Below, piece by piece: positions 11,634 through 21,520 of a stretch of 33,026 bases of DNA (positions are counted from its first letter, which is position 1; each line of letters opens with the position of its first letter). Location of the stretch: NCBI GenBank assembly GCA_903872565.1, contig CAIQLG010000551.1:1-33026 (forward strand). The letters are read 5' to 3'. A program made the translations under genes and the position numbers. The DNA is from an uncultured Lentisphaerota bacterium. GTDB taxonomy: Bacteria > Verrucomicrobiota > Lentisphaeria > Victivallales > GWF2-50-93. The notes below the pieces were generated by a model. That model did not search any database. It was not told where the DNA came from and saw nothing but the letters and a program-made list of their open reading frames with translations.

Positions 11634-13763
11634 TCACGGTCTTCTGCCAGCTGCACGCAGTATCCGTTTTGAGACGTCCGACTCTCCCTGGATCACATGA
11701 TTGCGCCTATATGTGAGATTTGTTGGATAGGAAACGCCATTGTCATCCATGTATGGACAAATGTCATAAAATTCCGAGGTCAGCCAGTAATTGCCCACAT
11801 ATTGAATGTCTCCATACGTTCTACAACCGCCGCTATCACTGCCGTACGGTGTATTATTTAGCAGAGAAGGGATGGATGAATAGGGGAGGGGGTCAAAAAT
11901 GCTGGGAGCAGGGCCGAAGTCCATAAAACCCTGCGGATTGTCGAAGGAAACATTATTTTTCAGTGTGATGTAGCGGCTCCCGCCATCGGTGTAGAAGATG
12001 TTGCCGCCGGCCGCCGGCCGTTTTCCGGACGCTACATTTCCGGCAATCACCATGCCCCTCGATGCCTTTATTCCCTGCTGGCTGAGCGTGTAGATTGCGC
12101 CTCCATCCCAGAGCACGTTGAGGAAGTTTTCCATGCGATTGCAAAGTATCTTGTTCTCGCGGCTGGTTGTTGGAGTATCATAGAGTCCCCACTGCCCGAT
12201 TATAGCACCTGGCGCACCGGGAAAGCTCCCCGGATCGAGCAGGCCCCAGCCCCAGCCAATTGCAATTCCCGCCCAGGGAACATCAATGATCGTATTGTGG
12301 CTTATGCATGTGCGTGTGGTGAAACCGACGAATATTCCCGCAGCGTCAACATATTCCCTGCCGGTACGCAAAACCAGATTGTTTGAAATCAAGTTGTCGC
12401 TCGTAATCTGCTCCGGGATGTCGGGATGATGGTCAATCCTGGAAACGCCGCCAATCTGGATTCCCGCCGACGAAATATCTTTGAACTGGTTGTTTACTAT
12501 GGAGTTGTGATGGCTCCCGGTATCGAAGTCAAGACCAACGGCGCCGAGGTGTTCGAAGAGGCAGTCGCGGAACTTGATCTTGTGCGCGAAAATAAACTGC
12601 ACATTGCCGGGTGTGCGCTCGTCGTTCTCGTCGTGCCCGATGACATTGGGCTCGTGGCCGTAGCCGACAAGATGGAAACCGCTCTGATCCGAGATATAGC
12701 CGTTGCTGTTGCCCGGGGCGAGCCAGGTGGCGTAGGAGAATGTCAAACCCTCGAATCGAATATTGGATATGGGTTGTCCAAGTTCCCCCTCTCCGTCCAC
12801 GAGAACCTCAAGCACCGGAAGTTCGACATCGGCTGTTGCGAGGTCTTCTCCCCAGCGGGGGATGTAGTATAACGTGCTTTTGGATTCATCCAGATACCAT
12901 TCTCCGGGCTTGTTTAGGAACTCATAGGCGTTTTCGAAACGTGTCACCTGCCAGAAGCTCCATAGCCCGGGCTGGTATTTATTTGCGAATTCGTCATAGT
13001 CGTAGAATACATTGGAATTCGTCCAGCCGGGCTCCTGAAGAGTGATCAGGCCTACATCGGTAAGAACATCAGGCTTGAAATCTGGATAGGCGATGATGGA
13101 GTCCAGGGGAACGCTCATCATCTTCCACTGGGTAATGATGACAGCCTCGATCTTTTGAAAGTTTTTCCACTGGGTCGGATCGCGCAATTCAACCGGATTC
13201 AGATCGGTGGGGATATACTCAATGCCGCCATTGGAAGGGTAGCTGGCATTGTAGGCTGGCTTGAATGCGGCAGGATAAGGATCAGTTTGAGCCCTGGTCG
13301 CACGCTGGCCGTTGACATACAACTGGCGTGACTTGTGGCTGCCAACATCGGCCTGGTAGATATTCAAGGCCTGATCGTGCAACGTCCAGTTTTCCACTTT
13401 GACTGCTCCTGAGATTACTGGGGTTTCGCCTGGCTCGTTATGGTATACCACATAATGGTTGTTCTTGCCGGAGTCGCGCGAGTCTAGCATCAGCGTCTGT
13501 TCGAGCCTGTATTCTCCGCCGCGAAGATATATGGAAATGTCCCGTTTTTGATTGGCATTGATGAGTCGCACCGCATCCCGCGCCCGTTCCAGGGTGCGGA
13601 AAGGATTCGCTTTGTCGCCAACGGCTTCGTCGTTACCATCCGTTGCGACCCAGAATGAAGTGGGTGAAGCCAGACCCGACACGGAATCGGCATGTGCCAC
13701 TAGGCAGATGAAAAAAATCAGAAAGACAAAAGGATAAAGATTGATAGAAATTTTATTTTTCAT
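11634..13763 (-). CDS. Secreted right-handed beta-helix protein, GH141-like
   Basis: The 709-residue protein has a signal peptide (MKNKISINLYPFVFLIFFICLVAHADS). It then shows the hallmarks of GH141-type beta-helix glycosidases: FWVATDGNDEAVGDKANPFRTL, ARDAVRL, YLRGGEYRLEQTL, ETPVISGAVKVENW and RQLYVNGQRATRAQ. From about residue 370 onward, parallel beta-helix coils repeat (NIRFEGLTF, IKFRDCLFEHLGAVGLDF, HNSIVNNQFKDISSAGIQI, LISNNLVLRTG, CISHNTIIDVPWAGIAIG). GH141 members characterised so far act on plant polysaccharides (fucosidase or xylanase), so it probably trims glycans outside the cytoplasm; the exact substrate is open. The start is taken at 13763 because the signal peptide begins there; the frame runs open to 13865 without support. 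It stands alone, without other carbohydrate genes nearby. Confidence 0.78.
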   Translation of the reverse strand: MKNKISINLYPFVFLIFFICLVAHADSVSGLASPTSFWVATDGNDEAVGDKANPFRTLERARDAVRLINANQKRDISIYLRGGEYRLEQTLMLDSRDSGKNNHYVVYHNEPGETPVISGAVKVENWTLHDQALNIYQADVGSHKSRQLYVNGQRATRAQTDPYPAAFKPAYNASYPSNGGIEYIPTDLNPVELRDPTQWKNFQKIEAVIITQWKMMSVPLDSIIAYPDFKPDVLTDVGLITLQEPGWTNSNVFYDYDEFANKYQPGLWSFWQVTRFENAYEFLNKPGEWYLDESKSTLYYIPRWGEDLATADVELPVLEVLVDGEGELGQPISNIRFEGLTFSYATWLAPGNSNGYISDQSGFHLVGYGHEPNVIGHDENDERTPGNVQFIFAHKIKFRDCLFEHLGAVGLDFDTGSHHNSIVNNQFKDISSAGIQIGGVSRIDHHPDIPEQITSDNLISNNLVLRTGREYVDAAGIFVGFTTRTCISHNTIIDVPWAGIAIGWGWGLLDPGSFPGAPGAIIGQWGLYDTPTTSRENKILCNRMENFLNVLWDGGAIYTLSQQGIKASRGMVIAGNVASGKRPAAGGNIFYTDGGSRYITLKNNVSFDNPQGFMDFGPAPSIFDPLPYSSIPSLLNNTPYGSDSGGCRTYGDIQYVGNYWLTSEFYDICPYMDDNGVSYPTNLTYRRNHVIQGESDVSKRILRAAGRRP

Positions 13764-13928
13764 AATCGCTAAATATAAATTGGCAGAGTGAAAAATCAAC
13801 ACGGTAATTTGCACTGCAACCAATTTATTGGACACTAATTCAGATTTCCTGACTCGTAGCTTCAATAGTGCTGAAGATGTGGGAAAAGGGGTTGTGGCTA
13901 AAAAGGGCTGTAGCCGGGAAATCTGAGA

Positions 13929-14453
13929 TTATGGTTCTCTTCCCGTTTTCGGTTCCGTCATTTCACCGGAGCAGACCTTCCATTCGATGATGAAATAGTG
14001 CTTTGTGCCGGTTCGGTGTGGGAACCAAAATTCTCCACCATACCCAAGAAGGGCTTCCCCCGATGCCATGGCCCTTGACTCCGAGGATGAATTGTCCCAT
14101 TTTTCATAATCCAAGGGTTCACCCGAATCCCAGGCGAACGTATGCCGTGCCTGGTCAAGATGGAGCCCGAAGTAGAAATCGACTCCGTCAGACATACTTC
14201 GCACGTACTCCATCAGGTCTTCCGCCTTGGCCTTGGTTGATGGCGAGGCGAGCCAGCCGCCCTGGGCACGGGCGAATGCGACTGCCTTCTGGCGTTCCAC
14301 AATCAGAGGAACAGACAGGTAGATGAACGAGCCTTTCCTTGTGCCGTACTTCCGCAGATCCACAGATTTTTCCTGCTGCAAGGCCAGAAGGTCGTCCAGC
14401 ATGGCATCTACATAAACACGTTTGTGTCCATTGATCTTTTCAAGAGTTGGCAT
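13929..14453 (-). pseudogene. C-type-lectin-like domain, probable frameshifted tail of the LRR kinase
   Basis: The 174-residue frame resembles C-type lectin folds: AVAFARAQGGWLASPSTKAK, DFYFGLHLDQARHTFAWDSG, EPLDYEKWD and GEFWFPHRTGTKHYFIIEWK. The ATG at 14453 has no ribosome site. The same frame stays open upstream into the end of the kinase gene and reads LTSAAGIKFVRTMPTLEKING, a segment that looks like the normal continuation of these LRR kinases. A -1 shift near 14488 would join it directly to the kinase end (LKYLEMD). I therefore read it as the C-terminal domain of the kinase separated by a single-base loss, either a real mutation or a sequence error. Independent translation cannot be excluded. 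Such domains bind ligands, often sugars or proteins. Confidence 0.6.
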
Positions 14454-14485: not shown

Positions 14486-17302
14486 TCAGTCCATTTCCAG
14501 ATACTTCAGTTTTAAAGAGCGCACAACATCGAGGTTCTTCTCATTCAAAGGCACTCCACGTATGTCGAGCTTGACAAGCGGTATTCCCTGAAGCGGAGAG
14601 AGATCGGAGATCGGGTTGCCTGTGAAGTTCAACATCGTGAGCGGCATCCCTTCAAGCGGCGTGAGATCTACGATCTGATTGTTACTGCAATTAAGCACTG
14701 TAAGCGGCATTCCCATGAGCGGAGCGAGATTGACAATCTGGTTGTCACTGCAATTAAGCACTGCAAGCGGCATTCCCATGAGCGGGGTGAGATCGGCGAT
14801 CTGATTGCTCCAGCAATCCAGTTTTGCCAAAGGCATTCCATGCAGGGGCGAGAGATCGGATACCTGGTTGCCCCAGAAATCAAGCTGCACCAGTGGCATC
14901 CCGCGCAGAGGCGAGAGATCGGAGATCTGGTTGCCCCAGCAGTCCAACTGTAGCAACTGCATTCCGCACAGGGGCGAGAGGTCAGATATCTGGTTGTCAG
15001 AGCAGTTCAGCTGCAGCAACGGCATCCCGCGCAGGGGCGAGAGATCGGAGATCTGGTTGCCCCCTAAATCAAGGAGTCTGGGTCTAATGGAGGATAAAGG
15101 CTCCAGACTCCTCATGCCGGAATGCGTTAATCGAACATTCTTCAGAGGTAGCTGGCAGATCCTTTGTAGCGTGGCTTGCTTGTTATCCGGGTTCATCTCT
15201 TTCAGCCATGGGCGGATTGTTTCCATGAACAGCATGGGTGCCTCGCTTTCCGGATCGATTTTGACTGCCTCCAACGCTACATCGCCAGCTCCGGTTCCAT
15301 CCCCGCGCTCCGCCAGCAGCCGGCACAAGATGTTCATGGCCCGTGAACGGAAGCGGCTTTTCACGTCTTTCCCTATCTGCTGGAACATCGATTTTTTCTT
15401 CTCGAACTCTTCCACCGGAACCGCAAGCGCCACGAGATAGGCGGCCTCCTGCCGGATGGATTCTTCCCTGGGTTGCCGGGCAATCTCCTCGAAATACTCG
15501 AGCGCGCTCTTATTGTATCCATCCCGCATAAGGATCCGGCCCGGCTCCAGGATGTCCACATAGCTCGCTTCCTGCCGATGGAATATGCGGAGCCTGCGAA
15601 CCAGCGTGGTGCCCTGTCCCGAGAAGCGGCTCACGGCCAGGCTGCGGTGGCGCTTACCGCGAGGTGCGAGAGGATCTTCATATTCCATGATCTTCTTTCC
15701 ATCGAGAGTCGCATTAAAGGTGTTGCCGGAGCGCCATAGGCAAAAGACATACTCTGGGGAGTCCGGGCTGAGAACGACATTGCACGTGTGCAGCAGTTCC
15801 CAGTATCCCCTGGACACAGTCTCAAACTCGACATGATTCAGGTTGCCGTCATCCGAGCGCATGATCCGCAGACGGTATCCGTCCATGGTGTCGCCCGAGA
15901 TGTCGATTCCCAAGTCGATTTTCTCCGTCCTCACCAGCGTCACCTCCACCTTCGCCTCCTCGGAGATATCCTCCTCCCATCGCACTATTGTCCGCCATTG
16001 GCAGGGGAGAAGTTTCAGCATGCCGTCAGCGACAGAGACCCTCTCCGGCTCGGGTACTTCCTCATAGGCTTTCAGATCAAAATCACGGCATCCTAATACT
16101 TTGAACCGGGGATCCAGCTTGTCGCCCCTGGCGAAATCAAGATCCACGACCGGCAACCATTCCTCGGCACGTTTTTTTTCCTCCTCGAAGAGCTTGAGCT
16201 TCGCGGCATCTTCCCTGTGTGTCGCCTCGGCCGCCTTCTGGGCGGATTCTGCGGATTCCGCACGTGCACGGAGTTCATTGAGCTGGGAATGCCTGATCCA
16301 CAGTCCTGAGACGATTGCAAACAATGCCATCACTGCGGCAATCACTGATACGGCCCTGTGCCTGCGGACCAGCAGCCACAACTGGCGGGCAAGTCCCGCA
16401 TGTTCGGCCATGGTCGCGAATCCGCCAAGGTATGAACTTATCTCCGAGGAAAGCTCGTCAACGCTCTGATATCTATCACCGGGATTAAGCGCCATCGCCT
16501 TCATGGCGACCGATTCCAGAGCCTTCGGGATTTCCAGTTCCGGCGATCTTTTCCGTGGCGGAATGAAATTTCCACTCACGGTGGCAATTAGAATTTGCCG
16601 GGAATTTTCGCCTTCGAACGGAAGATGCAGCGTCAATATCGAATAAAGCGTGGCGCCCAGTGAAAAAACATCGGTACTGGAATCCTTTTCGCTGTTCCTT
16701 CCAAGTGCCTGTTCCGGCGCCATGTAGCCGGGGGTGCCCTTTATGACTCCGTCCATCGTGAATTTCACTGATGAGTCGCCGATATTCTGCGACAAAGCTG
16801 ACGACTTTCCTTCAACTTCCTGTGGAGACTGCGATATGATGTTCCCGGTATCATCGCTCTTTGCACCGAGAATTTTCGCGAGCCCCCAGTCGACGACAAG
16901 GACTTCGCCATATTCCCCGACCTGTATGTTTTCAGGTTTGATGTCAAGATGGATTACACCTTTAGAATGCGCAAAGGCAATCGCATCGCAGACCTTCTGG
17001 AATATCTGCAGGAGATTGAAAAGATTGTATTTTTTCAGGTAATCCTTGCTGCCTCCTGCAAGTTTCCGGAGAATGGACGCAAGAGTTTCACCGGATATCA
17101 GCTTCATCGTGAAATAAGGCTTGCCTGACTCGTCAACTCCGATATCATGGACCGGAACGATGTTAGGGTGTTCGAGGTTGGCGGCTATCCTGGCCTCCTG
17201 GATGAAACGCGGAAAAGATGTAAGCTCGTCCTCCTTGAGCATGACAGCCATCGCGATGTCCCGTGAAGTATCCTTGTCCCATGTCCTGATTATCACCTTC
17301 AT
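14486..17302 (-). CDS. Hanks-type Ser/Thr kinase with transmembrane helix, LamG-like domain and LRRs
   Basis: The 938-residue frame starts inside the kinase glycine loop. Visible kinase elements are Lys2 (in GKGGMKVI, partly upstream of the ATG), Ala19 where the beta-3 Lys is expected (IAMAV), alpha-C Glu36, HLDIKPEN (118-125), DWG (138-140) and GTPGYMAPE (189-197). A membrane helix (about 316-336) is followed by a charged coiled coil (337-382). A region of about 385-570 looks concanavalin/LamG-like, then comes a helical stretch and eight 21-residue leucine-rich repeats (744-911). It is probably a membrane receptor kinase with an external sensing half. The start is not natural: the glycine loop (TVGKGG) is encoded just upstream in this frame without a start codon, so the N-terminus probably comes from 17493 by a frameshift. 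Confidence 0.85.
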   Translation of the reverse strand: MKVIIRTWDKDTSRDIAMAVMLKEDELTSFPRFIQEARIAANLEHPNIVPVHDIGVDESGKPYFTMKLISGETLASILRKLAGGSKDYLKKYNLFNLLQIFQKVCDAIAFAHSKGVIHLDIKPENIQVGEYGEVLVVDWGLAKILGAKSDDTGNIISQSPQEVEGKSSALSQNIGDSSVKFTMDGVIKGTPGYMAPEQALGRNSEKDSSTDVFSLGATLYSILTLHLPFEGENSRQILIATVSGNFIPPRKRSPELEIPKALESVAMKAMALNPGDRYQSVDELSSEISSYLGGFATMAEHAGLARQLWLLVRRHRAVSVIAAVMALFAIVSGLWIRHSQLNELRARAESAESAQKAAEATHREDAAKLKLFEEEKKRAEEWLPVVDLDFARGDKLDPRFKVLGCRDFDLKAYEEVPEPERVSVADGMLKLLPCQWRTIVRWEEDISEEAKVEVTLVRTEKIDLGIDISGDTMDGYRLRIMRSDDGNLNHVEFETVSRGYWELLHTCNVVLSPDSPEYVFCLWRSGNTFNATLDGKKIMEYEDPLAPRGKRHRSLAVSRFSGQGTTLVRRLRIFHRQEASYVDILEPGRILMRDGYNKSALEYFEEIARQPREESIRQEAAYLVALAVPVEEFEKKKSMFQQIGKDVKSRFRSRAMNILCRLLAERGDGTGAGDVALEAVKIDPESEAPMLFMETIRPWLKEMNPDNKQATLQRICQLPLKNVRLTHSGMRSLEPLSSIRPRLLDLGGNQISDLSPLRGMPLLQLNCSDNQISDLSPLCGMQLLQLDCWGNQISDLSPLRGMPLVQLDFWGNQVSDLSPLHGMPLAKLDCWSNQIADLTPLMGMPLAVLNCSDNQIVNLAPLMGMPLTVLNCSNNQIVDLTPLEGMPLTMLNFTGNPISDLSPLQGIPLVKLDIRGVPLNEKNLDVVRSLKLKYLEMD
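14570..15073 (-). repeat. Eight tandem 63-bp leucine-rich-repeat units
   Basis: Eight contiguous 21-codon units inside the kinase gene encode the pattern LxLxxNxIxDLxPLxGMPLxx (for example LDCWGNQISDLSPLRGMPL). Units differ mainly at the four positions after the second Leu (GG, CSD, CWG, FWG, CWS, CSN, FTG), the exposed concave face in LRR solenoids. High nucleotide identity between units suggests recent expansion by unequal exchange. The opposite strand carries an incidental long open frame through this block, which is a shadow. Confidence 0.85.
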
Positions 17303-17493
17303 GCCACCCTTGCCGACTGTCCGTTTGTTGCTGTATTGCCATCGGGCTTCCGGGTGAGGTGATGCTTTATCCTGTCGGCATCAATCTCTATGTCATTCAT
17401 CAGAACTGTCCGGGAGGAATCGGAAGCGGCATGTGTTGCTGATTTTTCTGTAGAGACATCGTCGATATTTACTGTCGTGCTTTTAGATTCCAT
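17299..17493 (-). pseudogene. Probable N-terminal piece of the LRR kinase, out of frame
   Basis: This 64-codon frame (begins MESKSTTVNIDDVSTEK) runs into the kinase start and ends at the TGA overlapping the kinase ATG. Its composition (polar, disordered, with a threonine/serine-rich start) fits the cytoplasmic leader that usually precedes the kinase domain in such proteins. The kinase frame is itself open upstream to 17380 and encodes RWQYSNKRTVGKGG, so the two can be joined by a -1 shift somewhere in about 17303-17380. The ribosome site before the ATG at 17493 is weak (TGGAAAAC). It is either a fragment of a broken gene or evidence of a base missing from the assembly. Confidence 0.5.
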
Positions 17494-17953
17494 GTTTTCC
17501 AGTATGACTTTGACAGTTGAAAAAGTTTTGTTTTTTATACCAATGTTGCTAAGTTAAGCCTGAATTCGAGTAACTCGGGGAATCTCCCCGAGGAAAGTCG
17601 CGGGGTGGTACCCCGCGATACTTGGCTTAACTTAGTGACATTCATTTTTATACTGTGGGAAATGTAGCCCGGAGACTATGAAATATCAAGAATTGGCTTT
17701 CCATAAACAAGCGTCTTTGGGTTGAGTTCCATCCCTCGCTTCCATCTGTTCATATTCACCACCGATGAAGATTGCAAGACCGATGGCAAGAATCACAATG
17801 CCTCTTTATTCCGCGCATTCAGCGCTTGTACAATGGGGGGATTTTTTCCCAAGGCGTTGCCTTGGGCTGAGGAATCTCAAGACTTTCCACCACAGCGGAT
17901 CAGCCGTGGTTGACAGCCCTGCCGGAAGTTACACTGTTTATTTTAGAGAATGT
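17494..17953. other. 460-bp gene-poor stretch upstream of the kinase locus
   Basis: Besides the MITE-like element at 17541-17644 it contains a perfect hairpin CCCAAGGC/GCCTTGGG (17848-17855/17859-17866) without a usable T-run on either strand. A doubtful minus-strand mini-ORF runs from 17796 to 17686 (GTG start, AAAGAGG upstream, 36 residues with a hydrophobic ILAIGLAIFIGG segment). The plus-strand open frames here have no coding character. The kinase promoter must lie to the right of 17493, but no clear -35/-10 pair stands out. Confidence 0.4.
17541..17644. mobile_element. MITE-like element with three-way-junction fold and 9-bp flanking repeat
   Basis: The outer arms CTAAGTTAAGCC (17549-17560) and GGCTTAACTTAG (17624-17635) are perfectly complementary and extend outward (ATGT/ACAT) past a 2-nt mismatch. 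They enclose two perfect hairpins: CTCGGGGA/TCCCCGAG (17574-17581/17585-17592) and TCGCGGGGT/ACCCCGCGA (17598-17606/17610-17618). The element is flanked by a direct repeat TTTTTATAC at 17532-17540 and 17645-17653, a possible target-site duplication. There is no coding capacity, so it would be mobilised in trans. Confidence 0.55.
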
Positions 17954-20408: not shown

Positions 20409-21464
20409 TCAGGCGGCCAACTCCTTGTAAAATTTAAAAAGGTCTGAGGCGGCATCCTTATATGTCTGATATCTGAGGTTAGGGTTCCTGTCAATCATCC
20501 TGTTCAGTATTTTTATGATTTCAGGGTGTGTCTTGGCTGGTAGCTTGCCTGCAATATTGTTTATTCTTAGAGATATCACGTGTTTCCCGATAAGCTCCCT
20601 TATGTCGGACGATGAGTAGTATGTCTGTTTTGCGATAACGTGATATATGACCATCCCGAGGCTATATATTTCGCTGTACTGGCCCTCTCCGCTTCCTGTG
20701 ATCCTTTCAGGAGGAATATAGAATGGAGATCCTTGTATTTCATCGCAGCTTTTTCCCGCTTCCTCGAGGGTTATAGCAAGGCCGAAATCAATGATTTTCG
20801 CATTTCCGTTGCGGTCAATTATTATGTTCTGCGGCTTCAGATCCCTGTAGAGGAATCCGCAGTCGTACATGTGCTGTTCGGCGGAAAGTATCTGGAGCGC
20901 CCATAGTGCTATCTGCTTGTAGGGACGCCTGGCAGGGGAATCAATTATCTGGTCAAGCCTTATGCCGTCTATGAACTCGTACACGGCGTAATATTCTCCT
21001 TCGTGAAATCCATAGTCGAAAACATTTGCGATATGCGGGTGTCCGCAGAATTTTTTCCCGTTGTGAGCCTCGTCCAGGAGTGAGTTTATCAGCGATGCAT
21101 CACTTTTTTTCTCTCTCGGGAGGAGTTTTACGGCAAACTCGACATTCGTATTCCTTATGTGAAATGCGTGATAGACGCTTCCCATTCCGCCACCGCCCAG
21201 AGGCTCATAAAGCCAGAAATCCTTTATGAACTTCGGGTTGAAATAGGGGGTTTCGCAGAAGGGACAGCGACACATGGCAAGGGGGATGTCGTCCGTGAGC
21301 CGCAGTTCCCTTCTGCACCCCTGGCATTGAATGAGACCTTGTTCAAGGAACTTGAGATCTGGTTTCACACTGAACTTCTGGGTGCTCTCATCGTGCATAT
21401 GGACAGGCGCTGTCTGAACCGCCTTCTCTGGAACTTTCTGTGTATGTTTGAATATCGAAAACAT
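20409..21464 (-). CDS. Ser/Thr protein kinase with N-terminal zinc ribbon
   Basis: The 351-residue soluble Hanks-type kinase has a zinc-ribbon-like N-terminus (Cys47/Cys50 in CQGC, Cys67/Cys70 in CPFC). The canonical kinase core has glycine loop GGGGMG (90-95), VAIK-type Lys113 (FAVKLL), YRDLKPQN (206-213, Tyr in place of the HRD His), DFG (226-228) and SPFYIPPE in the activation segment. C-terminal lobe motifs are SEIYSLGMVIYHV and DRNPNLRYQT. No membrane helix is seen, so it is probably cytoplasmic. The start at 21464 has a GAAGGT ribosome site; a TTG at 21491 is less likely. In contrast to the large LRR kinase, its catalytic lysine is in the normal place. Confidence 0.88.
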   Translation of the reverse strand: MFSIFKHTQKVPEKAVQTAPVHMHDESTQKFSVKPDLKFLEQGLIQCQGCRRELRLTDDIPLAMCRCPFCETPYFNPKFIKDFWLYEPLGGGGMGSVYHAFHIRNTNVEFAVKLLPREKKSDASLINSLLDEAHNGKKFCGHPHIANVFDYGFHEGEYYAVYEFIDGIRLDQIIDSPARRPYKQIALWALQILSAEQHMYDCGFLYRDLKPQNIIIDRNGNAKIIDFGLAITLEEAGKSCDEIQGSPFYIPPERITGSGEGQYSEIYSLGMVIYHVIAKQTYYSSSDIRELIGKHVISLRINNIAGKLPAKTHPEIIKILNRMIDRNPNLRYQTYKDAASDLFKFYKELAA

Positions 21465-21520
21465 TTGATTACCTTCAAGTTTATTTCCCAAAAGCTATCT
21501 TGGAGGGTAGCAGGTTTTAT

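Follow-up and report, generated by a model that had tools for sequence, protein, structure and literature searches.

The eukaryotic Wnk kinases have been called the only functional ePK family without K72, and in them catalysis depends on a lysine in the glycine loop that interacts with ATP as K72 does elsewhere (PMC1821047). A comparable shift of positive charge, from position 72 to position 55, is seen in the CAK-chloro kinase-like family (PMC1821047); there, however, the residue at 55 is Arg and that at 72 is Met, the alpha-C Glu is lost, and the family is not one of Hanks-type protein kinases. In bacteria, many members of the pseudokinase families ActPs1-3, GLW, CP1, DYD and DLHK lack the beta-3 lysine (PMC12599244), but these carry a beta-3 Arg or hydrophobic residues and/or have lost further motifs, no family among them is described as combining a glycine-loop lysine with an intact catalytic set, and this 2025 review of bacterial pseudokinase families cites WNK solely as a eukaryotic comparison. 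A kinome study of PVC bacteria required the K, D and D sites before counting a kinase as functional (PMC11032199). In the open-licence literature we found no description of a bacterial clade with its lysine relocated in this way.

Here we describe such a clade, among whose members is a kinase encoded in a 33,026-nucleotide stretch of DNA from an uncultured Lentisphaerota bacterium (contig CAIQLG010000551.1; the whole stretch is referred to below as the window). The direct sisters of this clade are the DWG-family Hanks kinases of PVC bacteria and some others (GGMG...VAMK...HRDLKP...DWG), which belong to the same sequence family, share the DWG motif and an insert-rich activation loop, and are often membrane receptors; these sisters keep the beta-3 lysine and HRD (G/K kinases), whereas in the clade the lysine has moved to the glycine loop, with Ala left at beta-3 (K/A kinases), and the HRD Arg has been lost. 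The best overall explanation, to which we assign a probability of roughly 0.8, is a relocation of the lysine with a single origin, giving active WNK-like kinases many of which probably target the product of a neighboring ECF sigma gene. The clade would add to Wnk a separately evolved case, in bacteria, in which the lysines are strictly swapped, and so be a natural experiment on the migration of the catalytic lysine, one that includes sisters with HLD but the old lysine.

A kinase with a displaced lysine

The protein kinase domain lies on the minus strand at 16427–17335 (residues 11–313 of a 321-residue frame read from 17365), as placed by Pfam PF00069 and an AlphaFold2 (AF2) model, and it scored above the PF00069 cut-off (E = 3e-33; 115.7 bits against a cut-off of 31.7). 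The segment 17230–17320 of this strand encodes VGKGGMKVIIRTWDKDTSRDIAMAV, in which the glycine loop reads VGKGGMKVI (17317–17291), with Lys at the third-glycine position (codon AAG, 17299–17297), and the beta-3 strand reads IAMAV (17257–17243), with Ala (codon GCT, 17248–17246) at the site of the usual lysine. An earlier note on this DNA had drawn attention to these two residues; both are confirmed at the codon level, and the pattern is common to 135 homologs. The alignment with PknB (GFGGMSEV...VAVKVL) is gap-free across this region, and the distance from the loop Lys to the beta-3 site in GKGGMK...IAMA is 17 residues, identical to that in WNK1 (GRGSFK...VAWC), the sequence of which was checked against PDB entries. 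The other residues that had been reported as retained were all located on the minus strand, namely the alpha-C Glu (codon GAG, 17195–17197; E57 of the frame, numbered Glu36 earlier), the catalytic loop HLDIKPEN, with HLD replacing HRD (16928–16951), which is conserved across the clade, and the metal-binding DWG (16883–16891). Because the beta-3 lysine of Hanks-type kinases (VAIK) is absent, being Ala in the window kinase and in 134 of the 135 clade members, the membership of the clade among Hanks-type kinases rests on fold and descent, as it does for WNK.

Read from an internal ATG, the open reading frame (14486–17302, minus strand) comprises the kinase, one predicted transmembrane segment, an extracytoplasmic region and C-terminal leucine-rich repeats (LRR_4, E = 1e-22), and the same leucine-rich tail is present at loci L091, L092 and L100. 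The earlier note had taken this ATG as the start and so had called the loop lysine Lys2, which did not hold: this ATG, at 17302, encodes the Met within GGMK, and the N-terminus lies upstream in another frame. The kinase frame is open for at least 21 codons upstream of 17302, yet there is no ATG, GTG or TTG there. The first half of the natural N-terminus (...IEIDADRIKHHLTRK) is encoded by a 64-residue ORF (17299–17493, minus strand) that is out of frame with the kinase and matches the N-termini of homologs (e.g., ...LEIDSGDVLSSLTRKPPEKYKFRKSIGHGGMK), and the second half (PEARWQYSNKRTVGKGGMK) is in the kinase frame. As the N-terminus is split over two frames, there is a frame change in the window copy at approximately 17335–17355; judging by the homologs, this reflects either a frameshift or a misassembly, and given the frame change the protein of this copy may not be made. 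The motif itself is unaffected by this, since intact homologs carry it too.

Lysine exchange among homologs

Homologs were drawn from the window's own genome and 145 genomes of its phylum, from 80 loci belonging to named genomes, ten of which were also searched with a profile, and from 80 additional regions; the scored set consisted of the 219 distinct kinases that aligned to one profile with both lysine sites readable. A loop lysine without a beta-3 lysine was present in 135 of these (134 with Ala and one with Gly at beta-3), and a beta-3 lysine without a loop lysine in the remaining 84, the loop residue of which was Gly, Ser, Ala or Cys; none of the 219 had both lysines and none had neither. 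Since all 135 kinases with the loop lysine lack that of beta-3 and all 84 others have it, this pattern is not one of chance. Whether the loss of the beta-3 lysine always accompanies GGMK was a check proposed in the earlier note, and it held in 135 of 135 cases. Homologs combining GGMK with a beta-3 lysine, which that note had given as grounds for rejecting the idea, were absent from the set. The note had also named as such grounds another lysine in the beta-3 pocket, such as its Lys23, but the loop lysine is the only N-lobe lysine conserved in more than 60% of the clade, and the position of Lys23 is Lys in 12%. In an earlier phmmer alignment one row (L167) looked like G/A, but it had been aligned wrongly and disappeared under the family profile.

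A DNA pattern admitting all four combinations of residues matched 92 of 388 genomes of the phylum, and among the matches listed, which were read by eye, every row was either GGMK..AMA or GGMG..AMK. A stricter DNA pattern was applied to 199 genomes from the phylum to which the Planctomycetota genome G394 belongs, and one of them, G388, matched. Most of the clade thus comes from Lentisphaeria and Kiritimatiellae, and a few representatives from Verrucomicrobia and at least one Planctomycetota genome (taxa as labelled). Members of the kinase family can be numerous within a genome, with about 60 in the 5.3-Mb genome of Lentisphaera marina IMCC 11369 (the source of L107) and about 24 in Pontiella sulfatireligans F21. 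A search of NCBIfam found no specific model scoring above its cut-off for the kinase.

Conservation of the active site

Throughout the clade (n = 135) G52, the alpha-C Glu, the His and Asp of HxD, N171 and DWG are 100% conserved and K168 99%, and 134 of the 135 members have G52, the alpha-C Glu, the HxD Asp, K168, N171 and the DWG Asp all together; the alpha-C Glu and DWG are likewise invariant in the ordinary class of the DWG family. Because this catalytic set is conserved despite a median pairwise identity of 43%, the sequences point to purifying selection on the active site as a catalytic site. The one member with a substitution of K168 is L095:2734-3651, which reads HLDLTPEN with Thr in its place. 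The biggest differences between the clade and its DWG sisters are at both lysine sites and at the HRD Arg position, which is Leu in 98% of the clade vs. Arg in 89% of the sisters. Also among the top differences are the Gly that follows GTP in GTPGYMAPEQ, present in 99% of the clade, and a site two positions beyond the catalytic Asn, which is Gln-rich in the clade vs. Met in the sisters.

Origin of the clade and alternative explanations

Trees were built with five trait columns removed. A quick tree needed two state changes and placed three G/K rows among the K/A kinases; this placement was not reproduced in a more careful tree, from which the outgroup and one long row were left out, and in which a single branch, supported at 97/81, separates the K/A kinases from the rest. 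Near the clade in the careful tree are the G/K sisters L094, L184 and L186. Of these, L094 has HLDLKPHN together with normal lysines, as does L072 (a kinase of genome G126 that is the same as L186), which suggests that the change from HRD to HLD preceded the lysine swap.

WNK1 scored 97 bits against a K/A profile and 96 bits against a profile of the ordinary sisters, and with the two lysine columns masked these scores were 95 and 100 bits, respectively; its score against a profile of other bacterial kinases was higher than either (130 bits). The clade nests in a bacterial family, and WNK1 resembles its members no more closely than it does their sisters. The likeness to WNK1-4, which extends to the third-glycine Lys in beta-2, the missing beta-3 Lys, the spacing, and the retention of the alpha-C Glu and other catalytic residues, is convergent, with an independent origin in bacteria. 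The clade also differs from WNK1-4 in its PknB-like fold and in having Ala rather than Cys at beta-3, HLD rather than HRD and DWG rather than DLG. The proposal that a WNK-like relocation took place in parallel in bacteria is therefore strongly supported, by the coupling in 219 kinases, by the retention of the remaining catalytic residues, by the single clade nested among ordinary kinases, and by the absence of any special relationship to WNK1 in these alignments.

The shared motif would also be accounted for if a WNK kinase had been acquired from a eukaryote by horizontal transfer, or if transfer had run in the reverse direction, and the two positions and their 17-residue spacing are indeed the same as in WNK1; we nevertheless regard this as exceedingly improbable, given that the K/A kinases are nested in the bacterial DWG family with ordinary lysines, that WNK1 is closer to other bacterial kinases, that PknB and PknA are the best folds, and that WNK has HRD and DLG, unlike the clade. 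It is very unlikely, too, that the window gene is a decaying pseudogene and its odd motif a product of mutational decay. The frame change between N-terminus and kinase would fit such decay, as would the lack of an in-frame start codon ahead of the kinase, but the Lys/Ala motif is present in 134 other kinases, most of them with continuous N-termini, and so predates any damage to the window copy; in addition, the other 938 codons of the window kinase are open, and the frame change could stem from misassembly, the genome being a draft of 606 contigs. Decay as the cause of the motif is thus refuted by the homologs that share it.

The remaining alternative is that the clade consists of pseudokinases, in which catalysis was lost with the beta-3 lysine and which persist as ATP-binding or scaffold modules with a loop lysine of structural use. 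The usual criterion for a pseudokinase is the loss of any of the beta-3 Lys, HRD Asp or DFG Asp (PMC12599244), the first of which is lost in the clade, and the HRD Arg is missing as well. What is not seen, however, is uncompensated loss: the catalytic Asp, N171, the DWG Asp, the alpha-C Glu and the loop Lys are at 100% in a clade of 43% median identity, every member has Lys at the one position known to compensate, and the described bacterial pseudokinase families mostly degrade several motifs instead (PMC12599244). We therefore consider pseudokinases unlikely, and favor active kinases with a lysine that relocated once.

Predicted structure and mechanism

An AF2 model computed from the window sequence and 39 homologs, with no ATP in the model, had a mean pLDDT of 87. 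In this ligand-free model the loop Lys is the first residue of beta-2 (23–30), the Ala is within beta-3 (35–42) and the alpha-C Glu sits in helix 48–63. A fold search with the model ranked PknB/PknA first as the nearest solved folds.

Under a single-origin relocation, the window gene would represent, in a copy with a frameshift or an assembly error, a bacterial Ser/Thr kinase of the Hanks type that is anchored in the membrane. Its ATP-positioning Lys has probably left beta-3 for the third-glycine position of the loop, where beta-2 begins, with Ala at the vacated beta-3 site. By analogy, the loop Lys most likely contacts the alpha and beta phosphates of ATP and the alpha-C Glu, like Lys233 of WNK1, and we infer from the Wnk precedent both this contact and the use of the lysine in catalysis. 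The swap would have a single origin, separate from that of WNK, inside an ordinary GGMG/VAMK/HRD/DWG bacterial family, and would have been accompanied by replacement of the HRD Arg to give HLD; the conserved residues of the clade enzymes suggest that these are active kinases. The active-site network of the clade cannot be identical to that of WNK, because the HRD Arg that is kept in WNK1 has been lost, with Leu in its place in 98% of the clade.

The chloride site of WNK kinases includes the leucine of DLG and the residue next to it. The counterpart of this leucine is Trp in 100% of the clade, as it is in the ordinary sisters, and the following counterpart position, after the DWG Trp, is mostly Leu, again as in the sisters. 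The earlier hint of chloride sensing is thus unsupported, the relevant positions being no different from those of relatives with the normal lysine.

Gene neighborhoods

In Lentisphaera, Pontiella and relatives the kinase gene is adjoined by an ECF-type sigma factor gene (Pfam Sigma70_r2), with such a gene beside the K/A kinase at 25 of 29 loci in L. marina and at 13 of 14 in P. sulfatireligans. In the set of named genomes a sigma neighbor was present for 15 of 28 K/A kinases vs. 1 of the 42 sisters with ordinary lysines (p = 6e-7 by Fisher test, with kinship ignored). The two genes were no more than 200 bases apart or overlapped in 74 of 77 pairs, the commonest arrangement being on the same strand with the sigma gene upstream. 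A kinase gene likewise adjoins an ECF sigma gene in the ECF43 pairs PknT-EcfP and PknS-EcfK, and phosphorylation of the sigma factor has been demonstrated for PknT-EcfP (PMC8999054). Based on the analogy to PknT-EcfP, the adjacent ECF sigma factor is a likely substrate of the K/A kinase, and many kinases of the clade probably act on the sigma factor encoded next door. However, those K/A-linked sigma proteins that were inspected differ from the ECF43 type in keeping an acidic stretch in region 2.2 (e.g., DAED/DADD), and because of this stretch the mode of sigma control may differ from that of ECF43. Sulfatase-like genes, recognized by motif only, are close to several of these kinase-sigma loci (L230-L289 and others). 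A search of the window found no sigma gene.

In Victivallaceae-type genomes a short lysine-relocated kinase (about 380–440 residues) is encoded immediately after clpX, in the same orientation, at 15 loci (L069, L070, L071, L074, L079-L081, L083, L084, L086, L096-L099 and L143). Where the sequence extends that far clpP is present as well (5 of 5 loci), and the order at L143 is tig-clpP-clpX-kinase. This arrangement suggests a link between the clpX-adjacent kinase and the ClpXP protease. The clade would thereby open a testable link to both ECF sigma factors and the ClpXP locus.

We consider it probable that bacteria have reinvented the WNK architecture on a broad scale, as a single-origin clade of active HLD Ser/Thr kinases that has dozens of paralogs per genome in marine Lentisphaerae and Kiritimatiellae, controls ECF sigma factors near sulfatase genes, and includes the clpX-kinase pair of Victivallaceae-type genomes. 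Surveys relying on the K, D and D sites (PMC11032199) would then discard a whole class of kinases in PVC bacteria as dead.

Several other features of the window lie near the kinase gene. Downstream of it on the minus strand are a small ORF (13929–14453) that is weakly C-type-lectin-like (PF00059, E = 0.0017, below the curated cut-off) and possibly in the same operon as the kinase, and a GH141-like right-handed beta-helix protein (11634–13865). A second kinase (20409–21491, minus strand) has the canonical motifs GGGGMGSV, VEFAVK, YRDLKPQN and DFG, in contrast to the lysine-relocated kinase. Just upstream of the kinase gene is a 95-base palindromic repeat (17546–17640) with terminal inverted repeats (CTAAGTTAAGCC...GGCTTAACTTAG), which is MITE-like and has 13 copies in the genome with 94–100% identity.
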